From: Malus domestica
Taxonomy: Eukaryota > Streptophyta > Magnoliopsida > Rosales > Rosaceae
Assembly: GCF_042453785.1 (NCBI RefSeq)
Contig: NC_091675.1
Span: 2,058,501-2,122,500 of the forward strand
Direction of reading: 5' to 3'
Length of the DNA stretch: 64,000 nt
Of the stretch, positions 13,769 through 62,395 are shown piece after piece; positions within the stretch are counted from its first letter, which is position 1; each line of letters begins with the position of its first letter. A model generated the notes under the pieces. It worked only from the letters and a program-made list of their open reading frames with translations, searched no databases and had not been told where the DNA came from. Position numbers and translations under genes: made by a program.

Positions 13769-14572
13769 AAATATAATCTGCTGAAAGTATTAAAAAAGGA
13801 CATGATTTCTTTGTCCTCCCAGTTCCTAGACATTTTCATTTTTTCTTATTTGTGCGGTCAAGGTTAAGCCACATCAACATTTTATATCACTATTATGTTT
13901 TGTCTTATTATCTCTGTAAAAAAATTAATATAAAATATTGACATGACTTAACGTGATCTTACAAAATAAGAAAGAATGTTAATGTATGGGAACTGGAGGG
14001 TAGAGAAGTCAGATCCATTAAAAAATGAGAAGATATTGGAGAACACAAATATAATTACTTTCACATGGAAGTATGGAACTCCCATGTGTGCTGCGATCCC
14101 AATAGTTTTAGAATTTCCTACTTACTTTGCCAGCAGCAGTACTTAGTTCCCACATCGGGAGTACGGCTATCTGCAGAAGCAGCATGGTGTATAAAATAGA
14201 ATGCGGTTAAAAGTTACCCTCATACTTTTCTTGGCTTTTAGGCTAAGATTAAGTGTAGTATCTGTTTTTATTAGTTTAATATATAATACGTAAATAAATG
14301 GTTTACATGATATTAAATTAATTTTTTTAAAGAGAGAGTCTGTTACAGTAACTTGTTGCTGTAGCTCTCGCGCGTAGCCTTTGTGTTGCACTACTGCATT
14401 GGCCTGGCCCACCCTCCAAGAGTAGTTCAAATTGTTTTTTATACAAGTCTCTGAAACCTTGGCAAAATTGTTGATCTCGATGATATGATCTCTGAGTTGG
14501 CTTTCCGAAACAGAAAGCCCTTGTTCAAATTTCCCCACTGAAAATCAAAACAAAGGCAGCACAGACAAAGGG
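13769..14572. other. Intergenic DNA upstream of the broken CML gene
   Basis: No intact gene. A minus-strand open frame at 14167-14538 has no recognisable motif and is probably chance. Confidence 0.45.
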
Positions 14573-36974: not shown

Positions 36975-39766
36975 ATGGAGGACGATTATTACGTCAGTAG
37001 CGAGGACGAGGAGTATTACGACGACGAGGATGATCGCCAGAACATGGAGCTGTTGGATTACGTCGAGAATGACGACTCTCTCCCGCCTGAGGTTCCGAGG
37101 AGTAAGGTAGCGATGATTTTTAATTTCGTTGTTAGGTGATCGTAATTTTGTGAATTTCTTTTCCCGGGATTTTATTTGTTTCGCGAATTTCTGAGATTTT
37201 CGGAGGAAATTTCCTTTCTTTTTTCTCGAATTCTATCGCTAACCACAAAAGGGGTGTGCTTCCTGTTTGGTTGCTGAGAATGTGGTTTATTGCAGCTGTG
37301 TTTTTGTCTTTGTTAGTGAAATTTGGGTTTCTTTCGGGGTTTCGGTTTCGCAATTTGATGCAGAGAGTGAGAAACAGAATCATATTCTCTCAATTTTTGT
37401 GTGTTTAAAATCAAATTAATTTCTTGTTGCCTGCAATTTAGCTTATCTGCATCATGATTTTTTCGATACTTTGAAACTGTGAAAGTTCTCGTCCTGAATT
37501 CAATTACTGATGCCATCTTAATTTGTATTTACAGGTCATTCCGAAAGAATCTCTCTTGGCTGCACAGGTATGGAGTTCTGTAAATTATTTTTGGATAATT
37601 TTGTATGATGTTACGGTGGTTATGTATTTGTTAATAGAATTATATCAAATGTGGCATTAAAATGTGCAGAAGGACGACGTGCAGAGGGTAATGGATGTGC
37701 TATCATCGAAAGAAAACCATGCCCGAACCTTACTCATCCATTATCGGTGGGATGTTGACAATCTGCTTGCGGTGCTTGTAGATAAGGGGAAAGATAGATT
37801 GTATGCTGAAGCAGGTGTGACGTTGGTGGAGCACAATAGCAATGTCTCACAACAGTTGCCCTCTGAGGTTATGTGCGGTATTTGCATGGACGAAATTCCA
37901 GCTGGTCAGGTGACACTCATGGATTGCGGTCACTGCTTCTGCAACGAATGTAAGTACTCTCCTTTGCATCTTCTATACTTTTTCACGCAATGTACGCATT
38001 TTGTGATTATAGTTTCCTTTTAATGGAATCCGTTTTGTCTACAATTGTGCTTAGGTTGGACAGAGCATTTTATTGTGAAAATAAATGACGGGCAGAGTAG
38101 ACGCATTAAATGCATGGCACATAAATGCAATGCTATTTGTGACGAATCCATTATCAGAAATCTAGTCAGTGTAAGAGATCCTAATCTAGCAGAGAAATTT
38201 GAGCGTTTTCTTCTCGAATCATATATAGATGATAATAGAATGGTGAAATGGTGCCCAAGTGTTCCCCACTGCGGAAATGCCATACGCATCGAGGAAGATG
38301 AACTTTGCGAGGTTGAATGTGCATGTGCGCTTCAATTCTGTTTTAATTGCTTATCTGAAGCACACTCCCCATGTTCGTGTCAAATTTGGAAACTATGGTG
38401 TCAGAAGTGCCAAGATGAATCAGAGACGGTTAATTATATTGCAGTCAATACGAAGCCTTGCCCAAAGTGTCACAAGCTGGTTGAAAAGAACGGAGGATGC
38501 AATCTAGTTACTTGTGTCTGCGGACAACATTTTTGGTGAGTGTTTGTATATATTTTCTGCATTTTGTTTAGTCTTGTGCCCTAACGTTTATGGAACTGTG
38601 GGGCTGGTTTGGGGAATATTTCGTACATTTAGATGGTCGGGCAGTGTTCAAAACTCCACCGGGGTAGGATCCTTTTCTTAGGATTTGCTGTGCTAAAGGT
38701 GAAGTTTATGTTGATGTGTGACTTTTCGTAGACTGGCTGCTTATAGAGTAGGGTTTGGACATAAAATTATTGGTTTAAAGCATTCAGTAATGTACATGTC
38801 ATCTTCTATGACATTGCGATAAGCAGTATTGTAATACAGAGTGTGGCTCAAAATCTTCATTGAATCAAAATGGAGCTTCCATAATTCTGTCACTCTTCTT
38901 TTTGATGAATCGTTGCTGCCATTTCTTTTGAATGGAGTGCATTTGATAATATTATAATATTGCCTTAAAGTTTGTTTCTATACGTGTTTTGACAGTTGGC
39001 TCTGTGGTGGCGCAACTGGTTACGAGCATAATGCGGAGTCCATCGCGGGTCACAGCTGTGGGCGATTCAAAGAAGACGAGGAGATGACTCTTGAGCAAGC
39101 CAAGAGCGATCTTGTTCGTTACACTCACTACTACAACCGTTATCAAGCTCATATCGATTCTCTTAAGCTTGAATCAAAGCTGAAACAAAGCATACAAGGA
39201 AAAATATCGCATTTGGTAGAAAGAGAATTTACACGTACAGATTTTAGCTGGGCAACCAATGTACTCAACAGACTCTTCAGATCAAGGCAGATTATTTCAT
39301 ATTCCTATCCGTTTGCATATTACATGTTTAGCGAAGATCTATGCAAAAATGAAATGACGGCAGAAGAAAGGACCATAAAACAAAACTTATTTGAGGACCA
39401 GCAGCAGCAGCTTGAGTCAAATATGGAGAAGCTTTCTAAGTTTATAGAGGAGCCCTTCGACGAGTATTCGCCGGATGAAATTAGGGAGTTGAAAATCAGG
39501 ATCTTAAATCTTTCTACGCTTGTTGATAAGCTCTGCGCAAAATTGTAAGTTTCTTTCAAGACTTGAGTTCTCCCATTTGGTCTTCAAAAATCATGCTGGA
39601 GATGGTGTTGCATTCAAAAATCATGTGGAATTGACGCGTATGGATTATTTACAGGTACGATTGCATTGAGAATGATTTGTTGGGTTCCCTCAAGTGGACA
39701 AGGCACAGTGTTGCTTCTTACAAGTCGAACGGTGTGGAGAAAGCTTCAGAACTTAACGGTTCCTAG
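36975..39766 (+). CDS. ARIADNE-type RBR E3 ubiquitin ligase
   Basis: Six exons join in frame to 528 residues: 36975-37106, 37535-37567, 37670-37949, 38055-38535, 38996-39544 and 39655-39766, all with GT-AG introns. RING-between-RING ligases accept ubiquitin on a catalytic cysteine before passing it to substrate. The N-terminus is acidic (MEDDYYVSSEDEEYYDDEDD), typical of ARIADNE proteins. RING1 uses C124, C127, C141, H143, C146 and C149. An IBR follows at about 215-255. RING2 begins at C284-P-K-C287 and includes the catalytic cysteine C297 in NGGCNL. The C-terminal Ariadne domain carries SDLVRYTHYYNRYQAH and the family ending SYKSNGVEKASELNGS. The protein resembles the Arabidopsis ARI1/2/3 group, intact and of normal length. 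Confidence 0.95.
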
Positions 39767-40947: not shown

Positions 40948-41966
40948 ACATTACAAAGCTAATAACTCTTTAATCAATATTGAAAGAGCAAAAAATTACA
41001 ACGTACTAAACAAAATTAAACATAGAAGATTAACTACTCAAAGCACCCTAGAAGGCTAGAACCCTCCCAAAACCCCATTTATCCCCAAAACTTAGATTAA
41101 GCACTTGAAAGGGAACTTTATAACTCATTTTGAAAACCAATTCAAATTAAAACGGTGTATTATAAATTTATCGTTTTACGTGTTGATCAATTTAAACACA
41201 AACACGACATGAATGTGAATAGTACATTAGGGCTTTGGTTTAGCTTATTGTTTTCACAGTTTTGTAAGTTTCATACTTGCAGCCCAGTGAGCTCAGTAAA
41301 ATCACTTTTTTCAGACAACAAAATTGATCGGATCCGGGTTGTTGAGCAGCCCGGTTTACAATGATTTTTGTCCTTTTTCATGTTCTAGTTTTTTCTTCCT
41401 TCCCACAAAAGAAAAGAGAAATTTTCTTCACCCTTATCCACCATGTCCAACAACACATAAGATTTTACCTCTCTTGATAAACTTTCCAAACCACACTTAT
41501 CTGAGTAGGTATGTGTGTGGGAGGCAGATTCTCTGCCCTCCCACTTCCGTATCTTCACGTACCCTCCTGTTTTGTATAGTCACAATTAAGCTACGTCAAA
41601 CCTATCAATATATTCATTACATATAAACATAATTATCAAACCTATCAAAGTTTTGATCCTCAAAAAATCATCAATATAATAATAATAACGTGTAGCAATG
41701 ACAAGGGAAAAAAACGTGTAGGAAGGAGTCATAGTCCAAAACATGAACAGCCTCACCACAAAAGGAAATTATTACTATATATTTTGGGAAAAAAATCAAT
41801 AAATATTTTTAAAAATAAGAAAAGTTGCGTTGGTTTCAAGTCGTAAATAACCGGCTTAAGCGAAACCGTGTTGACAGCGAATCACTTACCCCTTCTACCT
41901 TAATATCCACCGTCCATTGTTTCCATCACGGTTTAATCTCAGCCGTTCGTATTCACTCACTATACC

Positions 41967-41974
41967 TATAAATA
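41967..41974 (+). promoter_or_regulatory. TATA box of the modular non-coding locus
   Basis: TATAAATA followed by a short C/T tract lies about 30 bases upstream of a sharp rise in GC content near 42000. This suggests a genuine transcription start for the locus that follows. Confidence 0.5.
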
Positions 41975-42574
41975 CCCCCTTAGGCATCCTCCCAACTCGC
42001 TTGTTCGGATGGCGCCCTTGATCGGTGTGGCGTCAGCGATCAGGTTTCATCGCTCTGTGCTGGTGTTGAATCTGCGTTTTTAGATTTCGATTTCGGCTCG
42101 ATTCCTCCGTTTGGGTTTGTTGATTTTTATGGATTGCGTTTCGTTATGGTTGTGATTTTAGGGTTGGCTGGATTCCTGGCGATGACGATTTCTCTTTCCA
42201 GGTTAAAATTTTTCGATCCCAGTCATCTGACGATGATTGAAGGTTGAATTCCCTTTAAATATTTAAGTTCTCCGCCTTTCGACTTACTTTTTGGGATTGA
42301 TTAATTCTGCGTTGTAGTGTTATTGGTGTGTTTTTAGCGTTTGGCTGGAATGTTGGCGATGGCCTTTTTTCTACCAAGTTAATACGTTTAAAGGTTGTGA
42401 ATTGTTGGGATTTTTATACCGATCGCGGTCTCCCGGACAAGAATTTGTGATGTTGGTATGATTTCCAATTAGTTGGATTGAGGTCTCGTTTTATCTTCTT
42501 GATCTGCTTTTGCGGTTTTTTGATTTCCTGTCCCAGGGTGGTCTGGATCCAGTAACTGGTTTAGCTTTTGTTTC

Positions 42575-42925
42575 GATTCGGAGGGAAAGATCATCAATTT
42601 TACCTATGCGTTTGCACCACATCGGTTACCTCTTCCGTTTTCTTTCTTTCTAAAGTTTATATAACATAATAATTTAGAAATTCGATCCCCATCCTTTCGA
42701 ATAAGTGGAACGTTGTTGTTAAATTTCAGGCCCTGTTTACCAGATAACGTGTCCCTAGGGTTTTGATTCGGAGTGGAAGATCATTAATTTTACCTTATAC
42801 GTTGGGGGTTACCTCTTCCATTTTTTCTTTCTTCCAAAAGTTCATAATAACTTAGAAATTTTGATCCCATCCTTTTGAATAAGTGGAACGACGTTGTTAA
42901 TTTTCAGGCCCTGTTTACCAGATTG
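42575..42925 (+). repeat. Tandem duplication, period about 190 bp
   Basis: Two diverged copies start near GATTCGGAG (42575 and 42765) and end in CAGGCCCTGTTTACCAGAT. They share AAGATCAT, AATTTTACC, GGTTACCTCTTCC and GAATAAGTGGAACG. This is an older duplication inside the 5' part of the modular locus. Confidence 0.8.
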
Positions 42926-43997
42926 AATCAGCATCGATGGTTTAGGCAGGAGGGTTAGGTAGGTATCTTACTCGACTAATATTTTGATGGTTTTGAGGTC
43001 GGATCATATGCTATTTAAATCTTAAAAAAAAAAATAAATCTTAAACTCGTGAATTTTTGTTTAAAATCATGTTATGTTTTTCCTCTTGTTTAACCCTTTT
43101 TGTTTAAAATCATGTTATGTTTTTCCTCTTGTTTAACCCTTCTAGTGACTGACAGTAAATTCAGTAAATTTGGAACGTGTATGGTTCTTTCAGATTCTGA
43201 TTTTTGTCCTCAAGGTCTGTTTTTAGTTCTTCAATCAAATTTGGTTTATAGAAGTATATTTGTACAGCTGACCCCACTTAGTGGGAAAAGGCTTTGTTGT
43301 TGTAGACGTATCTTTGTGCTCGTTCCAGTCTGTAACGACTTTGTTGGTTTCTGTATGTATTCAGGTGATTATTGCGTCTTTTAGGAGCAAGATTGTTACT
43401 TAAGATGGGTTTGATGCTTCTTTTTTCACATTTATTTATTTATTGGCTTATGAACAATGTTTTACGGATCAAATTTAAATTGACTGGTAGTTTAAGGAAA
43501 ATGGATTGCTCCAATTTATGTCTTAATATATATATATATACACACACACATACGTATATATCTTGATTTATTATTTTTGGGTTTGAGCAGTGTTCTTGGC
43601 AGAATAGCTCATGTATGTTCAAGCAGTCTCTCTTTGTTTTCTGAGAATAAGCTGTTTTGAGGGGGGTTTTTATGCTTGTTGTCTTCTGACTTATTTTTCT
43701 GTTTCTTTACTTTGGTGATATATTTGAGTAAGTTTATTCATGCGGACAGCTTCCCACTTCTGTGTATGCTGATGTCTTAAGTGTCTGTTGAGGAGTCGCA
43801 TTTTAGAGAAGTGCATGCTGATATCTAAGAGGGGGTTCTCTTGTCTTATAATCCTGTTAATTTGTTTTTTAGTATAGATTTTTCTACGTTGTCTAAGAAT
43901 AAAATGCTTCTGTATGCAGACACATTCTTACCTTGTTGAAGGAAACAGCTTTGTACAGTGGGTTTGGGTGGTTCTTGACTTGTTTAATTTTTTATTC

Positions 43998-45966
43998 TTG
44001 AGATTTATGCCATCTGGAATCATTATTTGATCAAAGATCACTGTTTTTATCAGATGCATCCCAAAATTTTCTTGTTATGGAGTTTCACTCAGTCAAAGGA
44101 AAAAGGGCTGCATGATTGTATAAGAGGGTTTGGTGTTTCTTGGCTCATGGGTTATTATCTTCTTTTTCAAAAGCTTTTACCATCTAGCACCATGTTTGAG
44201 CAATGATTTTTCTGCAGATGGTATGTTTTTTGTTCATGGAATCTCACGTTTTGAAGGAGAATGCGCTGATTTTAGTTGGGGGTTCAAGTTCTTTCTTCTT
44301 GCTTCTGATTTAGTTTTTTTTTCTTGGGCTTTTGTTTGGTTCTACATTTGAGCAATTTGTGGCTACCCAATTGTTTGTTTGCAGATATGTTGAAGCGCCT
44401 TGTTTTTGGAGTCCTCCCTCGTTAAAGGAGAACAGTGAATATTGACAGGGGTTCTGTTGTTGTATGTTTTTGTTTTCTTATCCTAGAGTATGGTTTGGTG
44501 CTATTATTTGAGCAATGTCTTTGTATGCAGACACTTTCCAACTCGTCTGTAAATGAGGTCCAACTTTGTTAAAGTAGAACAAGCTGCTTCCAAGAGGGGG
44601 TTTGATTAGTTATTGGATTATGATTTAAATTCTTATTTCTTGGGTTTAATTTCTTATTTCTTGAGATTTATGCCATCTGGAATCATTATTTGATCAAAGA
44701 TCACTGTTTTTATAAGATGCATCCCAAAATTTTCTTGTTATGGAGTTTCACTCAGTCAAAGGAAAAAGGGCTGCATGATTGTATAAGAGGGTTTGGTGTT
44801 TCTTGGCTCATGGGTTATTATCTTCTTTTTCAAAAGCTTTTACCATCTAGCACCATGTTTGAGCAATGATTTTTCTGCAGATGGTATGTTTTTTGTTCAT
44901 GGAATCTCACGTTTTGAAGGAGAATGCGCTGATTTTAGTTGGGGGTTCAAGTTCTTTCTTCTTGCTTCTGATTTAGTTTTTTTTTCTTGGGCTTTTGTTT
45001 GGTTCTACATTTGAGCAATTTGTGGCTACCCAATTGTTTGTTTGCAGATATGTTGAAGCGCCTTGTTTTTGGAGTCCTCCCTCGTTAAAGGAGAACAGTG
45101 AATATTGACAGGGGTTCTGTTGTTGTATGTTTTTGTTTTCTTATACTAGAGTATGGTTTGGTGCTATTATTTGAGCAATGTCTTTGTATGCAGACACTTT
45201 CCAACTCGTCTGTAAATGAGGTCCAACTTTGTTAAAGTAGAACAAGCTGCTTCCAAGAGGGGGTTTGATTAGTTATTGGATTATGATTTAAATTCTTATT
45301 TCTTGGGTTTAATTTCTTATTTCTTGAGATTTATGCCATCTGGAATCATTATTTGATCAAAGATCACTGTTTTTATCAGATGCATCCCAAAATTTTCTTG
45401 TTATGGAGTTTCACTCAAAGGAAAAAGGGCTGCATGATTGTATAAGAGGGTTTGGTGATTCTTGGCTCATGCGTTATTATCTTCTTTTTTAAAAGCTTTT
45501 ACCATCTAGCACCATTTTTGAGCAATGATTTTTCTGCAGATGGTATGTTTTTTGTTCATGGAATCTCACGTTTTGAAGGAGAATGCGCTGGTTTTAGTTG
45601 GGGGTTCAAGTTCTTTCTTTTTGCTTCTGATTTAGTTTTCTATTCTTGGGCTTTGTTTGGTTCTATATTTGAGCAATTTGTGCCTACCCAGTTGCTTGTT
45701 TGCAGATACGTTGAAGCGCCTTGTTTTTGGAGTCCTTCCTTGTTAAAGGAGAACAGTGAATATTGACGGGGTTCTGTTGCCGTATGTTTTTGTTTTCTTA
45801 TCCTAGAGTATGGTTTTGCGCTATTATTTGAGCAATGTCTTTGTATGCAGACACTTTCCAACTCGTCTGTAAATGAGGTCCAACTTTGTTGAAGTAGAAC
45901 AAGCTGCTTCCAAGAGGGGGTTTGATTAGTTATTGGATTATGATTTAAATTCTTATTTCTTGGGTT
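43998..45966 (+). repeat. Triplicated block of about 663 bp containing four mini-exon modules
   Basis: Blocks at about 43998-44660, 44661-45323 and 45324-45966 are nearly identical; the first two differ at only a few positions. The third differs more and is a little shorter. Each contains the same four modules in the same order, so module positions shift by 663 bases between the first two blocks. High identity indicates recent unequal exchange. Confidence 0.95.
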
Positions 45967-48900
45967 TATGTTATCTTTAGTATTATTTGATCAATGATCA
46001 ATGTTTCATATCAGATGCATCCCAAAATTTCGTGGTTATGACGTCTGACTCGGTCAAAGAAAGATGTGCTATCTGCTTCTGAATGGGGTTCCGTGGTTAT
46101 TGGTTTAAGTTTTCATCTCCTATTCTCAGAGAGCTTTTGAAATTATTTGGGCAATATTCTTTGCAGATGCATTTTAAATCTAGGTTGGATATGGAATCTC
46201 ACTTTGTTCAAGGGGAAAGGGGTGCTTTTAAGGGGGATTTCCTTTATCTTTTAAATGTCCATTCTTAGATGTTGTATCCAATCTTGCGCCATGAGTTGAG
46301 CATTGTTTCTGTATGCAGACACATTCTATCCTCCATCCGTATATGGCAAGCAGAGGAAGGAGGGCAGTCTGAGGGGGTTTGAGCGGTTTTTGCTTTTTGA
46401 TATAATATCGTACTCCTGGTTGAGATCTGAAACAGTTATTGGAACAATGTTTTTTGCAGATCGATTTCAAAATAACCTGTTTATGAAGTCTCAAGAGTGT
46501 CGGATGACAACGGTCTGCCGGTTTTTAAAGAGGGGTTAATACTTCTTGGTCTATTTCTTGATCTTGTATTTCTTAGAGCATTGCGAAATTGTTTGAGGAG
46601 TTATTTGTGCAGATGCCTTTCTATTTTGGATCGAGTCAAACTCATTAAAGGGGAGCAGTTGACTTTTAAGAGGGGGTCTTTTGTCTTACTGTCTTCTTTT
46701 CTTTGCTTGGCTTCAGTTGTTTGAGCAATGTTTTTTCTATGCAGACACGTCCCGACATTAGTTTGTACGTGGTGTGCAAGTTTAGTGAAGGAGAGTGGGC
46801 TGCTTCTGAAAGGGGGGATTTCCATAGTTCCTGTCTTATGAATTTGTTTTTGGTTTTTGAGATGCTGAACCATTATACGGTCACTGTTCTATTGCAGATG
46901 CCAAACTCTTTTGTCTCACTCAGTTGAATGAAAAACGGGGCTGCCTGCTTTTAGGATGGAGTCAGATACTCTTTGGCCTTTTTTTCTATTCTAAGTTGTT
47001 CTTATGAGATCTTTATGATTTTATTTTATTTTTTTAGTTTATAAATTTGCTCTATGTTTGAGAGTACTTTTTTTATGCAGAGACATCCCAACTTCTGTCT
47101 GGGTTCAACTTTGTTGAAGGGGAGCATACTGCTTTTTGAAGGGGTTTGGGTTCTTGGCTTATGATTTGATTTCGTATTGCTTGGGGATTGTTTGCCGTGC
47201 AGATTTTTTTAGCTTGGAGTCTATCGTATGTCTACTTTATGGAACCGTCCTCACATTTGGTTTGCTATCCATCTGTTATCCTTCACCGTTTTCATAGAAA
47301 GATTTTCTTCAGTTTACGCTTCTTTGCTTCATTGTCTTCTGGCTCTGGTTTTATGCATCTTGGCTTGGTTTATGTTCAAATACTGCACAGCCTGATGTAC
47401 GACTGATGGGATTCACAACTATTTGAGAGATGCTGAAGTTTGTTTGGCTATTTAAATTTAAAGAATTTTCCTTGGATAAGATCCGGCATTTTCATTTCAG
47501 ATGCAGTTGTCTTTAAACACAGTTACCCTCCTGTGGTTTGATTTCAGGAGGGAGTATGATGCTTCTTTTCTTGTGATTAGTTTTTTCTTTAAACCGCTGT
47601 AAGATGTGATTCTAAATGTATGCAGTGATGGGGCGGAGCCTTATTTCATTGGATCCTAGAGGAGTATGGACTGCTTATAAAATGGAGTTTGTTGCATCAT
47701 GGCTTTGATTTTCAAGATGGCACTATACATGGACCGAAGTGATGAATTCTGGTTTTGTTACATCAACTGTCGTGAATTTTGGTTTTGTTTCAACAACTAT
47801 GTTCTCTTGCAGTGGTCTTGTGCTGAATAATCTTAATTATCGTGGAGTTTGGGGTTGGACTGACTCATTGTCTTCTACTTAGGCCGGCCAGAATTCTTTT
47901 GGGAGTTTAAGGCACAGATTAAGAGGTTCATGCTTTCTGGCTTATCAAGTTATCGTTTTATTTGTTATCTTGTCAAAGTTCATACGTCTGGCAGCTATGT
48001 GGAGATGCATTCCTGCAGAGGGCCCTTGCTAGAAACTCATAGAGTTGGTGTTTAAATGTGAACTATCTGGCAGTATTTTTTGGGATATGATTATGCAGTA
48101 TGGATTTTACTTTTCATGAATGAGTGCAGTGTGTCATATTCATGTTGATGGAACTGCTCTTTGAAGATGTCGTGGAGTTCGGTTCTTTTCTATAGAGTTC
48201 ATTGTTTCCCTGTTTTTCATTGAAGATGTCGTGCAGATGTAACTTAGGTGATGTCTGGTCTATTGATGACGTTGTTGGTGTGCAGGTTGTATTTCAAAAA
48301 GTAATGTAAATGTCATGTCATTTTGTATGTGCAACGTGAAGATAGGGATGAAAATGTTCCTGGATTAACATTTTAACTAATCAAAGTGATTAATATTTTT
48401 AATTGTGGGTTAACTCTGAAAGGAGCCGCATGAAGTGCATCAATAATTTACAGTGAATTGATGGGTGTCTGCAATTGGCGTCTAAAGATATTGAATTGGA
48501 ATATAAAGCTAAAATAAGGTCAAAGCACGTAAGGGGAATGAAGGAATGCTTGGTTCGAATTGTAAGTTAAAGCCATTCTCTGATTTTGTTTTAATTGTTA
48601 TTGCTAAATGACATGCATGATATTTTGCTACAAAAATCATGATATATTTTACGTCAAAAGCACTCTGTTTTATTTCGTGTTCTAATTGTCGGTCCCATTG
48701 TTTGGGTTTATTGCGGTGAATTCATTCTACGACATTTCTCTTGAACTGGATTTTGTTGTTTGTTTTTAACATTGTTTTCCGTCATGCATCATTTGATCGT
48801 TTGATATATAAATGAGATCTGCATTAGTTGTTAGTTACTGGTCCTTATTGCTCTACTCTTACGTTGTTTGGAAGATTTTCACCGATCAAGTTTTGTACTG

Positions 48901-49060
48901 CCTGAATAGGTTTAGCCGCATGATTTGTTTTGTCTCTCATCTCTTGGGTGTTTTTTAAAACATGGATAACATGCAAAAAAGAAAAAAACGGTGAATAACA
49001 AATTGTTTGATTCGTGTCTATCATCTCTTGTGTCTATACTCTGCTGTGTGTGCATTTGTT

Positions 49061-49095
49061 GTTAGGTTAGGTTAGGTTAGGTTAGGTTAGGTTAG
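49061..49095 (+). repeat. (GTTAG)7 simple repeat
   Basis: Seven exact GTTAG units directly abut the tRNA-like element. In the other register this is TTAGG, not the plant telomere unit TTTAGGG. Confidence 0.95.
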
Positions 49096-49194
49096 AGGGA
49101 TGTAGCTCAAAATGGTAGAGCACTCAGAGCTTGTAATTTGTAAAAGTTACATGGTGTACCTGAGAAGATCAAGGTTCGAATCCTTGCGTCCCTG
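49096..49194 (+). tRNA. tRNA-like gene or pseudo-tRNA with intron-like insert
   Basis: All canonical helices can be drawn: acceptor AGGGATG (49096-49102) with CGTCCCT (49187-49193), D-arm GCTC/GAGC, anticodon stem CTCAG/CTGAG, and T-arm CAAGG-TTCGAAT-CCTTG with a perfect B box (GGTTCGAATCC). The A box TAGCTCAAAATGG is good. Between the anticodon-stem strands lie 32 bases instead of 7, which can form an internal TGTAA/TTACA hairpin, like a pre-tRNA intron. Against a working tRNA, no T is found at the position expected for U33, so the anticodon cannot be assigned. No CCA is encoded, as is normal for plants. Confidence 0.45.
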
Positions 49195-49480
49195 CATTGC
49201 TCTTTGTTGCATGAACAAGTGATGTGGAACTTGTAGTGTGTATAATGCATCTGTTTGTGTTCTGCAAGACTAAGAAGTGCCTCACTGTTTCAGCATTCTG
49301 TGCAAACGGGAGAGAGAGCTAAAGCTTGTGTCTTGGGGCCGTTGGGGGAAGAAAAGGATTGGCATCCCAGGCACACTGAAAGCATGATGGCCTTGGAGGA
49401 AGGAAACATCAACGTCAAGTATGAAGAAGTAAACTGGTGCTGCTCTTAAGCAAAATCTAGACTGGTTTTCTTAGTTTCTG

Positions 49481-50115
49481 TAATGCTCACTTTTGCCAGT
49501 TTTTGTACATATGAGTGTTCTCTTTCGGTTTATTATTTTGGGCTTCCAAGAAGTTGTACACGCTTTACTTTCTTCAGTAACAATTTGATCCAAATCGGTA
49601 ATTGCGCAAACATGTTGGCCCAAATATTTTCTGGCTACTCACGGCGGCAGCAGTTAGGGATTCAGTTTTGGATAGGGAGAATAAGTTGATGAGAATCAAA
49701 ACATTAATATCAGCAATTGACAAAAAGGAAAACTCCCCATATGTAGGAAATGGGGAATATCGGTGGGGAAGGGGATCGTTTGAAAATGCTTTTAAAACGT
49801 TTATGGTGAAATCAATTTTCGATTTAAGTGTTTTTTTGGAAGAAGTTTTAGCTTTGTACTAAAAATTGGTTTCAAAATATTTTCACCAAAGACAATTTAA
49901 TCATTTTAAAAAGTACTTCTAAACGAACTCATTATCATTAAGTATGATTTAATGGTATTCTTTTATATCTGTAAGTGAAATGTAATAGTTTGAAATATTT
50001 TGAATGACAAGTTGAATGAATATGTTTTTTTACGTTGCATCATTATTTCAAAGAAAAGAGAATTTAGCTTATCACTTTGTGTTTATGATTTCTTGGTGGT
50101 TCCTTAACCTTCAAT
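49481..50115. other. Intergenic DNA between the modular locus and Cassandra LTR
   Basis: AT-rich. A stretch at about 49785-49930 has AAAGTGCTT/TTTAAGTG-like sequence reminiscent of decayed hAT-type MITEs, without clear ends. No gene recognised. Confidence 0.45.
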
Positions 50116-50120
50116 CATTT

Positions 50121-50400
50121 TGTAACTTCCCACATCGATCAGGGGTGTGGATATCTATACCTTATATGTATATTCTCATCTCTACTTAGCACGAGATTTT
50201 TTTGGACCTCACTGGCTTCAGGTTCCGTAGGAACTCCGAAGTTAAACGAGTTCACACGAAAGTAATCTCATGATGGGTGATCTAATGAGAAGTTCTCGTG
50301 TGAGTTCCTAGAAACAAAACTATGAGGACGTGGTCGGGATCTAAAACGGACAATATCGTGCTATCGCGGAGTCGAGCCCAGAATATGATGGGATGTGACA
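50121..50400 (+). mobile_element. Cassandra-type (TRIM) solo LTR, second copy
   Basis: Runs from TGTAACTTCCCACATCG to GGGATGTGACA, 280 bp. The 5S-rRNA-like core (GGAACTCCGAAGTTAAACG, then ATGATGGGTGATC and AGTTCTCGTG) is obvious. Near-matching 5 bp flanks (CATTT at 50116-50120, CATTC at 50401-50405) support insertion. Only one LTR is present. It is oriented opposite to the copy at 7498-7741 and retains a longer right end. It is a fossil, somewhat diverged. Confidence 0.9.
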
Positions 50401-50405
50401 CATTC

Positions 50406-50817
50406 AGTCCAAAGTTCAAATTGAATCAGATTCCATTTATGCGAAGTAAGGGGATAATTTGGCTGTAACTAAAAAGTAAGGGCTTCGACCAATTAAAAAA
50501 AAAAAAATATATATATATATATATAAGGGCTTTTTGGTAAAAAAATAAATAGTAGGGGCTTTAACGTGCCGACACATTTATTATTACCGTTTGACGTTCG
50601 ACCCGTACCCGACGCATTTCGGGTCCTCTTAGTCCAAACTCGAAACTTCCGTACACCCAGCAGACCCAGCAAAGGTTGTGCAGTGCCAACTTGTACTTTC
50701 GCATTTTCGTCTCGCACCTTCTTATTTTATTTGTATTTATCCGGCAGTCTTTTATTTTACCATTAAATTACAGCAGAGTCCGATTGAGATCCACCCAGTG
50801 CAGCACCACCACCGGCG
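50406..50817. other. Promoter and 5'UTR region of the SEC3 gene
   Basis: Contains an A-run and (AT)n near 50494-50526, then a GC-richer leader before the start codon at 50818. No separate gene is supported; the short open frames overlapping the start are shadows. Confidence 0.5.
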
Positions 50818-53800
50818 ATGGCGAAATCGAGCGCAGACGACCAGGAGCTGCGGCGGGCCTGCGAGGCCGCCATCGAAAGCACCAAGCAGAGCGTCGTTGT
50901 GTCCATCCGCGTGGCCAAGAGCCGTGGGATCTGGGGCAAGACCCACAAGCTCGGCCGCGACATGGCCAAACCTAGGGTTCTCGCACTTTCCGGTACGCAG
51001 TTGAATTCTATTTTCGTCCCTGTACTTTCAATCGATTAAACCGTATGCGCTGTGGAAAATTGCAAGGGAAATTAAGCTTTTGTAAAGATTCACACTGCAG
51101 ACTTCGTTTTCACTTGTCTAATTGTTAGAATCTTTTCTTTTCACTCTTTTGGATTGATTATAATGTCTCCAGATTGCGAAAGATAATCGGAATGGGGTTG
51201 AATGGATGGTAATGTATTTAGGTGCTTAGACTAGGGTTTAGGGTCTCCAGATTGCGAAAGATAATCGGAATGGGGTTGAATGGATGGTAATGTATTTAGG
51301 TGCTTATACTAGGGTTTAGGGTCTCCAGATTGCGAAAGATAATCGGAATGGGGTTGAATGGATGTTAATGTATTTGGGTGCTTAGAGTGGACAATTTCAA
51401 GAAATATAACTTTTGACTGATGTGTTTTATTCACAAGATTGTATGCATTGGTCAATCTTACAGGGAAGATAATAAATTTTTGAACTTGCCGAGTCATTTA
51501 TCTGCTTTAAGGATGTAGCTAGAACTAGGTTTTACTACGATAATGTTGCAAATCAGCACGGTGGGTTGTCGGACGAAGACTTCAAAGCATTGTCTTAGTG
51601 CATATTTTAAGGGTTGGAAGATAACTTTAGTTACTTCTCGCAGAATCATTAAACAGGACTGTACAAGGCATGCCGAGCATTAGATGGTGCAGTAATGATT
51701 TTTATCAGTGAGGTTGATTCGAGAATTGTGAGCTGACTTGTAGGTGTTCTAGGGGTTAGTCTACATTTTTTTTCTTCTCTTACTACACTTTTAATAACTC
51801 GAATTTTGCCACTAATGTATCACTATGATAATGGATAATAGATGGTGAATAATGGATAATGGATAGTGGATACTACTACACTTTTCTTCTCTTACTACAC
51901 TATCTGATTGTTCTAAAATGTGACAGCCATTCAATATCACATGAGGGGAAATTAAAAGACTCGTCTTTCCTAGCTTAGGTCATGGCCTGTATATGTGTGC
52001 ATAACTACAAATTCCCACTCTAGTATAAATATTCAGGCAGATGCAGATCACTGTGGGCACCTTAGTCGTACTTAATTTGTGTTGGTGACCACCCTTTGTT
52101 GTTTGTGCAGTAAAAACCAAAGGCCAGAGGACTCAAGCCTTTCTCCGAGTCTTAAAATATTCTACTGGAGGAGTCCTTGAGGTGAAGTCCTTAACAGATA
52201 TGTCTTATTTTGTGCTGTAAAGTTGGGCTTAATTAGGGACTGGGATTATGATTTTCAATTACTCAGAAATTTTCTTTTACTGCAGCCTGCAAAGTTATAC
52301 AAACTAAAGCATCTTTCAAAGGTGGAGGTTTTAACAAACGACCCTAGTGGGTGTACTTTTACTCTGGTAGGTAGTGCTCCATCTTCCATGTGTCTATGCT
52401 CTATATACATGCTGGGAATTTGTGCAAAGAAATAGGGTTCGGTCAATTAAGAAAAACAAGAAACAATGTTTGAGAAAAGTTTCAGTCCCATCCTCCATTT
52501 TAGTCTGACTGAATTTCTTGTAGGGTTTTGATAATCTTAGGAGTCAAAGTGTTGCTCCTCCTCAATGGACCATGCGAAATATTGATGACAGGTATGCCAT
52601 GGAGAACACCTATTTGGATGTTATCCTCCAGTAAACAAATTGATAAGATTCTGATAATTGGTTTTCTTTTTCTTTTCTGTGTAGGAACCGGCTTTTACTT
52701 TGTATTTTAAACATATGCAAAGATGCACTGGGTCATCTTCCTAAAGTTGTTGGTATAGATGTGGTGGAGATGGCTCTTTGGGCTAAGGTGCATATGATGA
52801 ATTTATACACCTGTATTGGTTTTTATGTACAGATTGGATTGCATGATATTTGTAATTGAAGATTTCACTTCCTTTGGAATCACTAATCATGGTTACAACT
52901 TTATGATGATAATTTTCTGTCAATGTGAATTTCTTTTTTTTTTCTTTTTGTTTTATTTTATGTCACTACGTAGAATTATTAGTACATACACTTCTCCTAG
53001 TTTTGGCTTCATGCTGTTGAAACTCTATTTATTAGTTGTTAGTTTGTTAAATTATTATTTGCAGTTAATTTTTGCCCAACTTTTTGTAAACAATGATTTA
53101 GGAAAATACACCGGCAGTCACTAGTCAAGTAAAGGAGCAAATGGGACCTGCTGCATCAACAGTAACTGAAAGTGACTTGAAAGTAACTGTTGAAAAAGAA
53201 CTTGTCTCCCAAGCTGAGGAAGAGGACATGGAGGCACTTTTGGGAACGTATGTACCATATCCTTATTTCTGATGTTACAAAGAAAATGTTTGTGCTTCGT
53301 TTCATTGTCCTTTTTGGGATATTGGTACCATAAGATTTTAATTGAAGTGATGCCTGTTTGCAAAAGTAGAATTATTTGATTGTTTTGAAGATCTTCTGTA
53401 ATTTCTTTTATCAGAAAACATAGCTATATACTATATTTTCCTTTGTTTGAGGTGGTCTCCCTATACAAAGGTCTTATGTCATTTCCTGATTAGAAATTAG
53501 ACTGATAGACAAAACCTTGGTTTAGTACGTGCTTAGTTCATGATACCTTCTGCATTGATGCCTGCCAAGAGTTCAATGACCAACTGGGGAATCCTAAATT
53601 GTCCCACCCTAGTCGATTACGGCTTTCTGTTTTTGAATGTTATCTATTGGTTGGGTTTGACAACTTCCAAATGGCAGGCATCAAATGCCATGTATTTATA
53701 GGGTGCTCTTAGTCACTCCTTAGTTGAATTACGTTGGAAATATCTTGATATAGTTATGAATTCTTTTGATTGTGGGTGTGTTATGCAGTTATGTCATGGG

Positions 53801-59536: not shown

Positions 59537-60826
59537 AGTGAGAGTTTGTATTGTATATCTTGATAGCCTCTATTGAGGGATGTATTTAGCTTGCCGTAAT
59601 CTTTTCCGTCCATTCTTTCTGTTTCATTTTCCGTAAACGTTGTCCTGTAATTTGATTTATTAAAAAATGTAGATTTTTCGAGTGTGTCCTGTCGATGTTG
59701 ATGAAAAAACATATGTAACATTGTCACCCCAGATGTTCTGTTGCTATATTTTTCTGTTCCCACGATTTGTCGTCCCAGTGTGCCGGTTTTTTTATTTTAG
59801 ATGATTTCAAGGAGAATATTAATCACCATTTCAAGTGTCTTGCAAGAAGCTTCTGCAGCAGATAAAATGACATGGAAGTAGGTTGGATAATGGTTTTTCG
59901 GAAGAGCTTTTGTATGTGCGGTAAGAAAATGTTATTAGCCATTTCGAAGCTGACTTACCATTTATTGTGGCATGCTCTAAAATATCGACATTATTCCGAT
60001 ATTTTTATCGAAATTTTTGTGTTTTTGGGCTACCGATATTTCCGATATCATCGATATTTTAGACCTTGATAGGAACTCTATGTGATACCAAGTCATTCAT
60101 GTATCTTACCATGCAATGTATGAAGTGTAAAATATTGTATTAATTCATTATATATAAATGATTATGGTGTGTTTAAACTTCTTTCATTAATTACTACATA
60201 TTTTCTACACTCACAATGTTTGCCAGCTCGCTATATAATCAATTTAAATCAGTTAAATCCATCATGCAATGCATTTCCTTCCAATTTTTTTTTTGTGATA
60301 AACTAATAGATAATTAACTAAATAAACATCCTGTAAAGTTTCAATAAAAATTTTCAAGTTTTTCTTACAATTTCCATGGTTTTTATTCAATTTTTATCGA
60401 TATCGATAATATCTCGATATTTCCATTGAAATTTTCGTATTTTTGGACTACCGATATTTCCGATATCATCGATATTTTATACCTTGTACGGCGTAAAGCA
60501 TAGCTAGAACGGATTTTCGTGACTTCTTTTTAATGAAAGGATTAGTTGTTTTCACATATGCTTGTTTACTTATCCAAAACGGTAATTTTTATGTCATACA
60601 AGTTGCTCTCCTCCGTCCGTTGAAAGAAGGTGTCGTATAAGCAAATGAAAAACCGAGAAGAAAGCGCATATACGGATATACATTGCACTTTTATAAAAGT
60701 CAGTCGTCACTCGTCAATGGCCCGGTCAACCCGCAAGTTCGTTGCACCATCCTCCAAACTGTCTCGTTCCATGGAATTATTGGTGCTTATCTTCCAGTTC
60801 TTGCCCTTACCTCCAACTCCCCCATC
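59537..60826. other. Gap between SEC3 and the intronless ARIADNE gene
   Basis: Begins with the SEC3 3'UTR, followed by AT-rich DNA holding two related CGATATTT-rich repeats (listed next). The last 200 bases are the probable promoter and 5'UTR of the ARIADNE gene. Confidence 0.5.
59976..60483. repeat. Pair of related ATCGATATT-rich elements
   Basis: Copies at about 59976-60065 and 60396-60483 share TACCGATATTTCCGATATCA followed by TCGATATTTTA and CC. The first copy has inverted ends (TCTAAAATATCG / CGATATTTTAGA), suggesting a small fold-back MITE family. Boundaries of the second copy are unclear, and the 330 bases between them are unrelated AT-rich DNA. Confidence 0.6.
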
Positions 60827-62395
60827 ATGGATTCTACTCACCACTCCAACAGCTTCCTCAGAGACGATCAAACGGCGTCGCAACAGCTTCACTACACAAT
60901 CTTGAAACAAGCAGACATCAGCCAGCGCCAACTCCATGAAATCACAGAGGTCTGCTCGACACTTTGCGTGTCCAGAGCCGCCGCGATCATCTTACTCCGA
61001 CACTGTAATTGGAACACCAGTAAGTTGTTTGACAAGTGGTTTGAGGAGGAAGACGAGGTTCAAAAAAGATTAGGCTTGTTTAAGAAAACAAAAACAAGCC
61101 CACTTGTTCGAACCTCGTCTTCTGATGTTTGTTCGTTTACTTGTGAAATTTGCTTTGAAACATTTGTTGGTGGTGATCGTGGAATTAGCTCCAATTTTTG
61201 TAGCCATTTTTATTGTGGAGGATGTTGGGGAGGGTATGTCAGTAAGTCAATTAACAATGACGGTCTTGGATGCTTGTCGCTGAAATGTCCGCATCCGAGT
61301 TGTGGTGCTGCTGTCGGGGAAGATATGATCTTTCTGTTGGCGGACATTGACTCCGATAAGGGTAAGTTTTCGCGGTACCTTGTGAGGTCTTACATTGAAG
61401 AGAGTTATCGGAAGACGAAGATAAAATGGTGCCCTGCTCCTGGTTGTGATAATGCTGTAGATTTTGTTGGTGGCAATAAGACTAATTATGATGTTTCCTG
61501 CCTTTGTTCGTATATATTTTGTTGGAATTGTTCCGAAGAAGCTCACAGTCCGGTGAAATGTGAAACTGTGGCCAAGTGGATGTCGAAGAACAAGAATGAG
61601 TCCGAAAATATGAATTGGATTCTTGTCAACACCAAGCCTTGTCCACAGTGCAAGCGACCCATCGAAAAAAACCAAGGATGTAACCACATGAGATGCAGGG
61701 CACCCTGCAGGTTCGATTTCTGCTGGATATGCCTTGGAGAGTGGAGCCGTAGCCATTTGTGTAATTCTTACCCGGAGGAAGTGAAGAGCAATGCGAGTGA
61801 GAAAAGGAAAGAGATGGCAAAGATGTCTTTAGACAGATACGTCCACTATTACGAGCGTTGGATAGCCAACCATGATTCCAAGCAAAAAGCTCTCCAAGAT
61901 TTTCGGCTTGTGCAAGCTGTCCATCTGAACAAACTTGATAAGAAGTATCGCCAAACCAATCCGATTCTCAGTTTTGTAACCGAGGCATGGCAAGAGATAA
62001 TCCAGTGCCGGCGGGTGCTGCAATGGAGCTACGCATACGGGTTCTACATCCCTGAAAATGAGGATGGTAAGAGGCGGTTTTTTGAGTACTTGCAAGGCGA
62101 GGCAGAGTGCGGGTTGGAAAAGTTCCATCGATGTGCAGAAGTGGAACTAGAAGAGCATGTCAACGCAGATAGATCCATTGAAGATTTCATCAAATTTCGG
62201 GCTAGGGTAGTCCAACTGACCGTTGTGGTTAGGAATTACTTCAAGAACTTGGTGCGAGCTATGGAAAATGACCTTTCGGAGATAAGATCGTATGGGGATT
62301 ATTGGTCTTGTGATCTCTGCACCTATGTCAATGACAGTTCTGCTACCATGTGTGTTATGTGTTCTTCAGAGTCTCCATTGCCTGCTGAATTTTAA
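60827..62395 (+). CDS. Intronless ARIADNE-type RBR E3 ligase with C-terminal RanBP2-type zinc finger
   Basis: A 522-residue RBR ubiquitin ligase on one exon. It resembles the ARI7/ARI8 group rather than the spliced ligase at 36975. RING1 starts CEIC (C106, C109). The IBR contains KWCPAPGCDNAVDF. RING2 starts at C272-P-Q-C275, with catalytic cysteine C285 in NQGCNH. The Ariadne domain (DRYVHYYERWIANHDSKQ) follows, and a RanBP2-type finger (WSCDLCTYVNDSSATMCVMC, 493-512) closes the protein. The acidic N-terminal tract usual in this family is missing; the protein starts MDSTHHSNSF. The frame stays open upstream to about 60683 but has no earlier ATG. Lack of introns plus the shortened N-terminus suggests a retrocopy that has stayed open. 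Expression is unknown. Confidence 0.9.
   Translation: MDSTHHSNSFLRDDQTASQQLHYTILKQADISQRQLHEITEVCSTLCVSRAAAIILLRHCNWNTSKLFDKWFEEEDEVQKRLGLFKKTKTSPLVRTSSSDVCSFTCEICFETFVGGDRGISSNFCSHFYCGGCWGGYVSKSINNDGLGCLSLKCPHPSCGAAVGEDMIFLLADIDSDKGKFSRYLVRSYIEESYRKTKIKWCPAPGCDNAVDFVGGNKTNYDVSCLCSYIFCWNCSEEAHSPVKCETVAKWMSKNKNESENMNWILVNTKPCPQCKRPIEKNQGCNHMRCRAPCRFDFCWICLGEWSRSHLCNSYPEEVKSNASEKRKEMAKMSLDRYVHYYERWIANHDSKQKALQDFRLVQAVHLNKLDKKYRQTNPILSFVTEAWQEIIQCRRVLQWSYAYGFYIPENEDGKRRFFEYLQGEAECGLEKFHRCAEVELEEHVNADRSIEDFIKFRARVVQLTVVVRNYFKNLVRAMENDLSEIRSYGDYWSCDLCTYVNDSSATMCVMCSSESPLPAEF

Follow-up and report, generated by a model that had tools for sequence, protein, structure and literature searches.

Results

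An array of diverged acceptor-block-donor modules

The locus described here lies in Malus domestica (assembly GCF_042453785.1, contig NC_091675.1), in a stretch of 64,000 nucleotides (positions 2,058,501 to 2,122,500 of the forward strand) that was analyzed at its full length and is referred to below as the window; all positions are those of the window, and all features of the locus are on its forward strand. Between 41967 and 49480, the locus combines a TATA box, an array of short homologous modules resembling mini-exons, and an element with a tRNA-like fold (Table 1). A first-pass annotation had reported the TATA box and the array, and overlooked the tRNA-like element; its observations are confirmed below, with corrections concerning the extent of the array and the strength of the donors.

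Table 1. Features of the locus, in window coordinates
Feature	Start	End	Strand	Basis and remarks
TATA box, putative RNA polymerase II (Pol II) promoter	41967	41974	+	TATAAATA located in the sequence; promoter function putative
Two diverged 5′ copies (42665-42745 and 42843-42923)	42665	42923	+	End in acceptor-like CAG and GCCCTGTTTACCAGAT
Array of 23 homologous modules, each made up of acceptor, block and donor; mini-exon-like blocks 42-89 bases long	43581	47150	+	nhmmer, each E ≤ 1.9e-7
Recent triplication of a four-module block within the array	43978	45969	+	Direct repeats, 663 and 657-659 bases start to start; unit edges are our own cut
Partial, decayed module	47657	47693	+	nhmmer, E 0.018
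Run of seven GTTAG units with six donor-like sites that overlap, adjoining the 5′ side of the tRNA-like element	49061	49095	+	Tandem repeat
tRNA-like element; all four stems intact, anticodon arm long	49096	49194	+	Rfam RF00005
Acceptor-like CTGTTTCAG, where the last intron may end	49285	49293	+	86th percentile
Putative last exon	49294	49510	+	Located just 3′ of the acceptor-like site, with TTTGTA at 49502; end guessed

A profile was built from 15 non-redundant modules, anchored on their acceptors beforehand; of the triplicated four-module block, a single copy was retained, and the eight surplus modules were dropped. Run against the window with nhmmer, this profile recovers 23 modules, in line with the roughly two dozen reported at first pass, as well as the partial match further downstream. 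As regards a dispersed satellite, the window holds no other full module on either strand, the other eight matches listed at E ≤ 10 having E values of 2.4-9, and the best match in a control search of the reversed window reaches E 0.93. Because profiles recover their own members, the profile was also rebuilt without each module in turn, whereupon 13 of the 15 non-redundant modules were still found at E ≤ 0.0016; the module at 43602 was found at E 0.032, and that at 43745, at E 1.0, was not significant. Kinship within this set is uneven, with the modules at 44053 and 46014 being 81% alike over 62 bases.

The modules follow one another at a mean distance of 158.1 bases (standard deviation 15.3, range 132-186, 22 intervals), within the 150-170 bases first estimated; the shortest block is 42 bases, as had been noted, but the longest is 89 rather than 85. 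The regular layout had been attributed to the whole of 41967-49480, whereas it occupies only 43.58-47.15 kb, about half of that interval; the profile finds no module at 47202.

The triplicated block is borne out by its direct repeats of about 660 bases and is recent. Its first 2 copies are 98-100% alike, and the third is 89-98% identical where ungapped and 72% identical in the one family broken by gaps; this third copy has gaps of 4 bases and 1 base inside blocks. The array outside these copies is older, as the first-pass annotation had proposed for its diverged modules. The data support an origin of the locus by ancient local duplication of a unit composed of acceptor, block and donor. Further, shorter duplications are found 5′ of the array: the two copies at 42665-42745 and 42843-42923 are 88% identical over 81 bases, with acceptors at 42729 (98.5th percentile, scored as described below) and 42907 (99.5th percentile), and a perfect tandem of a 43-base unit occupies 43054-43139.

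Conservation at the splice-like borders

Splice sites were scored with weights taken from general knowledge and expressed as percentiles among all forward-strand AG or GT dinucleotides in the window. The most conserved run of the gapped alignment of the 15 non-redundant modules is CAG|A at the acceptor, with C in 15 of 15 modules, A in 14, G in 15 and the following A in 15. Across all 23 modules, CAG is found at the acceptor in 21, the exceptions being CGG at 43745 and AAG at 44716, and of the 14 non-redundant modules possessing the AG, all but one (13) score at or above the 95th percentile, the exception being at the 92.6th. Retention of CAG|A speaks for constraint on the array. The donors are weak: GT is present in 13 of the 15 non-redundant modules (21 of all 23), with GA in its place in the other two, and the 13 scores range from the 49th to the 91st percentile, so that none reaches the 95th. 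The claim that splice-like borders persist in the diverged modules therefore holds for the acceptor half and only weakly for the donor half. Such a combination of strong acceptors and weak donors is compatible with alternative splicing.

Mean pairwise identity across the 15 modules is 0.42 in the blocks (0.215 in shuffles, z 11.5), 0.45 in the 40 bases ahead of the acceptor (z 12.0) and 0.51 in the 20 bases around the block end (z 16.3), all three values being inflated since we chose the boundaries ourselves and the shuffles were not re-anchored. Identity in fixed register, likewise raised by anchoring, peaks in the 10 bases on either side of both borders. The intron interiors, 9-70 bases long, are the least conserved part and lie near shuffle level (0.30 versus 0.247, z 2.5). 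Both a branch-site-like TTTGAGCAATG and a G-run ahead of the block end are frequent in the alignment.

These figures also bear on the view that the array is a local, minisatellite-like tandem repeat that is never spliced and whose splice-like borders came along passively as the unit was copied. Apart from the weak donors and the two modules without GT, the G-run ahead of the block end, which is kept as well as the GT itself, fits that view, and so does the comparison of the recent copies. Between copies 1 and 3 of the triplication, 10 of 273 columns differ in the blocks, 7 of 160 before the acceptors, 0 of 32 after the block ends and 26 of 206 in the intron interiors, but 17 of the latter 26 differences are located at the unit edges; with the edges excluded, there are 7 events per 273 columns in the blocks (2 of them gaps) and 9 per about 189 in the intron interiors. 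Because blocks and introns thus change at similar rates, the recent copies add no support for constraint. Among the 15 non-redundant modules, however, the acceptor columns are better kept than the remainder, and blocks and borders are far better kept than the intron interiors, even if anchoring inflates the latter contrast. We therefore regard an unspliced repeat as very unlikely.

Coding potential and RNA fold of the blocks

The first-pass annotation found no protein frame in the locus, and this holds: joined end to end, the 23 blocks form a chain of 1544 nucleotides in which the longest stop-free runs are 75, 53 and 52 codons in the three frames, and the longest ATG-initiated open reading frames (ORFs) fully contained in 41967-49480 encode 90 amino acids. 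Hints of an old reading frame remain, as would be expected if the locus were the pseudogene of a protein-coding gene with symmetric, repeat-encoding mini-exons. Block length is a multiple of three in 10 of the 15 non-redundant modules (p 0.0085 if the modules were independent, which is too small a value given their shared descent). In one frame, counted from the block end, these blocks contain 8 stops, whereas base shuffles have their 1st percentile at 11; when columns are shuffled instead, so that homology is preserved, 8 or fewer stops arise in 3.5% of cases, with 9 observed on the same columns. Third-position mismatches amount to 0.50, against 0.46-0.47. Yet 12 of the 23 blocks carry a stop in that very frame, the third recent copy has the within-block gaps described above, the block chain is nowhere open for more than 75 codons, and shared descent makes the p values too small in general. 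A coding repeat is possible for an ancestor of the array and unsupported at present. We consider a decayed protein-coding gene very unlikely.

Selection on block sequence had been put forward at first pass, together with a check for a consensus secondary structure. That check was run, and no common fold emerged: the mean folding z is +0.23 over the 15 blocks, and the RNAalifold consensus energy is 0.0, a value that is uninformative as a control because all 200 column shuffles likewise give 0.0. Selection on block secondary structure is thus not borne out.

Plant small nucleolar RNAs (snoRNAs) are often intronic, and the regular mini-exon layout lacking an ORF is what a snoRNA host gene, with the mini-exons serving as spacers, would look like. 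The snoRNAs would be expected in the intron interiors, yet these are the least conserved part of the modules and very short, and no Rfam snoRNA family matches in 41500-50000 even at E ≤ 5. We consider this explanation extremely unlikely and rejected it.

A tRNA-like element close to the 3′ end of the locus

The tRNA-like element, located near the 3′ end of the locus between the donor-like GTTAG repeats and the acceptor-like CAG, matches RF00005 with 49.8 bits (cutoff 29); at the gathering threshold, the 64 kb contain no other tRNA match. Pairing is standard throughout the four stems. The minimum-energy structure is a cloverleaf whose long anticodon arm carries a self-paired insert of 32 nucleotides between the two strands of its stem; the fold has a z of -3.04, and 2 of 200 shuffles fold equally well. 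ARAGORN with bacterial settings makes no call at 49096-49194. No TTTT run occurs for 272 bases downstream of the element or in 49001-49096.

Nuclear tRNA genes have a standard anticodon loop and a nearby Pol III terminator, in place of which the element has the 32-nucleotide insert and no TTTT within 272 bases. An independent tRNA gene or the head of a short interspersed nuclear element is disfavored by the paired 3′ acceptor strand, the long anticodon arm and the lack of a near terminator. No match to mascRNA is found in Rfam at the locus, where the database returns the general tRNA family.

Splice-like sites flank the element, which plausibly resides in a putative last intron of the locus. 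On the 5′ side, the donor-like sites formed by the GTTAG repeats score at the 96th-97th percentile and may be used as donors. These seven GTTAG units are perfect and have a telomere-like look.

Neighboring genes and other features of the window

The locus had been placed between an ARIADNE gene and SEC3. The former is present: an Ariadne domain is found upstream in 38958-39545 (E 1.7e-75), and UBA_ARI1 and IBR domains are found in the two preceding pieces of the gene. The downstream gene is likely SEC3, an identity that is weakly shown, given that one of its eight pieces matches the Sec3 coiled-coil with 17.1 bits, below the curated cutoff of 27.1 (E 0.005). Close to the start of this putative SEC3 gene, three tandem repeats of 78 bases, 86-99% identical to the first, occupy 51165-51398.

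A second ARIADNE-type gene at 60641-62392 is a single uninterrupted frame, 584 codons in length, in which IBR, Ariadne and RanBP zinc-finger domains are matched; it differs in this from the split gene at 37661-39545 and is perhaps a retrocopy. At 14222-14417, Rfam reports a U2 small nuclear RNA (snRNA) with 122.6 bits, preceded by TCCCACATCG at 14148 and by TATAAAA, an arrangement similar to that of plant snRNA gene promoters; the body of the U2 match departs from the consensus at many pairs, and the sequence might be a gene or a young pseudogene. Finally, 50128-50420 contains the TCCCACATCG motif followed by a stretch resembling 5S rRNA (17.7 bits, below the Rfam cutoff of 38; E 0.87), and may represent a short retroelement of the Cassandra type, which it resembles.

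Discussion

Here, we characterized a plant locus that harbors an array of diverged, mini-exon-like modules and a tRNA-like element. It is probably a Pol II-transcribed long noncoding RNA (lncRNA) gene of the GUT15/CR20 family, as suggested by its architecture, which combines noncoding character and abundant splice signals with a tRNA-like element located in the last putative intron. We know of no other family that fits this architecture. The GUT15/CR20 family is characterized by a cytokinin response and an unstable transcript, and the GUT15 tRNA-like molecule reportedly originates from the final intron and is said not to be made by Pol III alone.

A stable tRNA-like molecule derived from GUT15 is the subject named in the title of Plewka 2018. 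In the passages covered, CR20/GUT15 is described as hormonally regulated, alternatively spliced and conserved throughout angiosperms, as well as among the earliest plant lncRNAs found, with little functional data (PMC10226578); CR20 of cucumber and its Arabidopsis homolog contain no long ORF (PMC2877095), CR20 is alternatively spliced and has a homolog in black walnut (PMC4732554), and a homolog of the family is present in Digitalis (PMC3269984). The regions detected in samples of hen2 mutants include part of GUT15/At2g18440 (PMC4140647), and one paper reports a GUT15 homolog of Astragalus as a target of miR156 (PMC6572118). As far as these partial descriptions go, GUT15 (At2g18440)/CR20 and the locus analyzed here share the plant host, the lack of a long ORF (at most 75 stop-free codons in the block chain and ORFs of at most 90 amino acids here), the richness in splice signals and the tRNA-like element. 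What sets the present locus apart is the array of 23 modules, which does not appear in the descriptions of the family that were covered, a body of text to which the primary papers do not belong; in the same text, a literature search found neither such an array nor a splicing-device layout for GUT15/CR20, and a search for plant lncRNAs with tandemly duplicated exons returned one paper, which is unrelated to judge from its title and abstract. Thus, the locus is probably known at the family level, with no description found of the mini-exon array itself, and the earlier statement that no plant lncRNA of this construction has been described probably does not hold at that level because the tRNA-like element points to GUT15/CR20.

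Several observations weigh against this assignment. It derives from architecture and not from sequence comparison. Scans of viral and prokaryote sequence collections, which contain no plants, gave no matches, although the patterns used do match the window itself; no miR156 site with up to three mismatches is present in the locus; and the neighbors of At2g18440 in Arabidopsis appear to be genes other than ARIADNE and SEC3. With respect to splicing, the donors are weak and in two non-redundant modules lack the GT, the acceptor that would end the last intron is moderate (86th percentile), and there are further donor-like sites in its vicinity, including one at the 98th percentile within the tRNA-like element. 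The hints of an old reading frame belong here as well.

Alternatively, the locus could be an lncRNA gene of another, undescribed family, with the tRNA-like element being a chance neighbor, such as an odd nuclear tRNA gene or a relic thereof. The distance from the array to the element, on its 3′ side, is about 1.9 kb, the element has A and B boxes that seem functional, and direct sequence comparison does not enter into the GUT15/CR20 assignment, all of which would suit this scenario. Conversely, the only tRNA match in 64 kb would then have to lie by coincidence on the same strand and inside the putative gene, with no run of four T for 272 bases downstream and an anticodon arm unlike that of a plain tRNA. 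We consider a chance association unlikely, albeit not negligibly so.

Assuming membership of the GUT15/CR20 family, the TATA promoter at 41967 would drive a Pol II transcript through the mini-exon-like array, in which each module would provide a 3′ splice site that is strong and a 5′ one that is weak. Because the donors are weak, use of the mini-exons is expected to be variable, and the blocks would probably be included, skipped or retained in many combinations, yielding many unstable isoforms lacking an ORF. The last intron, bearing the tRNA-like fold, would probably give rise to a stable small RNA excised by the enzymes that process tRNA ends, that is, RNase P, RNase Z and CCA addition, and this excision would compete with the splicing of the intron. 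The array itself probably grew by duplication of the intron-exon unit, with the triplication of about 660 bases as the latest step.

Of the interpretation offered at first pass, then, old local duplication and the acceptor border stand, the block fold does not, and the donor side is weak. More speculatively, and with a small but appreciable chance of being correct, the array could be a splicing device, in which about two dozen strong 3′ and weak 5′ splice sites are kept under selection to generate combinatorial noncoding isoforms and to set the release of the final intron and its tRNA-like RNA.

Two animal systems invite comparison, although no kinship with either is claimed. MALAT1, the source of mascRNA, is an animal lncRNA, whereas the element described here would be intronic. 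FIRRE-type lncRNAs contain local repeats of about 156 bases within the lncRNA gene and share with the present locus the local repetition, but here the unit comprises an acceptor, a block, a donor and an intron, and is strongly diverged.

If the locus is indeed a member of the GUT15/CR20 family, its diverged array would represent an internal record of what evolution keeps in such a gene, namely, acceptor signals and block ends but no fold, and the candidate functions would narrow to two, splicing as such or motifs in the linear RNA sequence.

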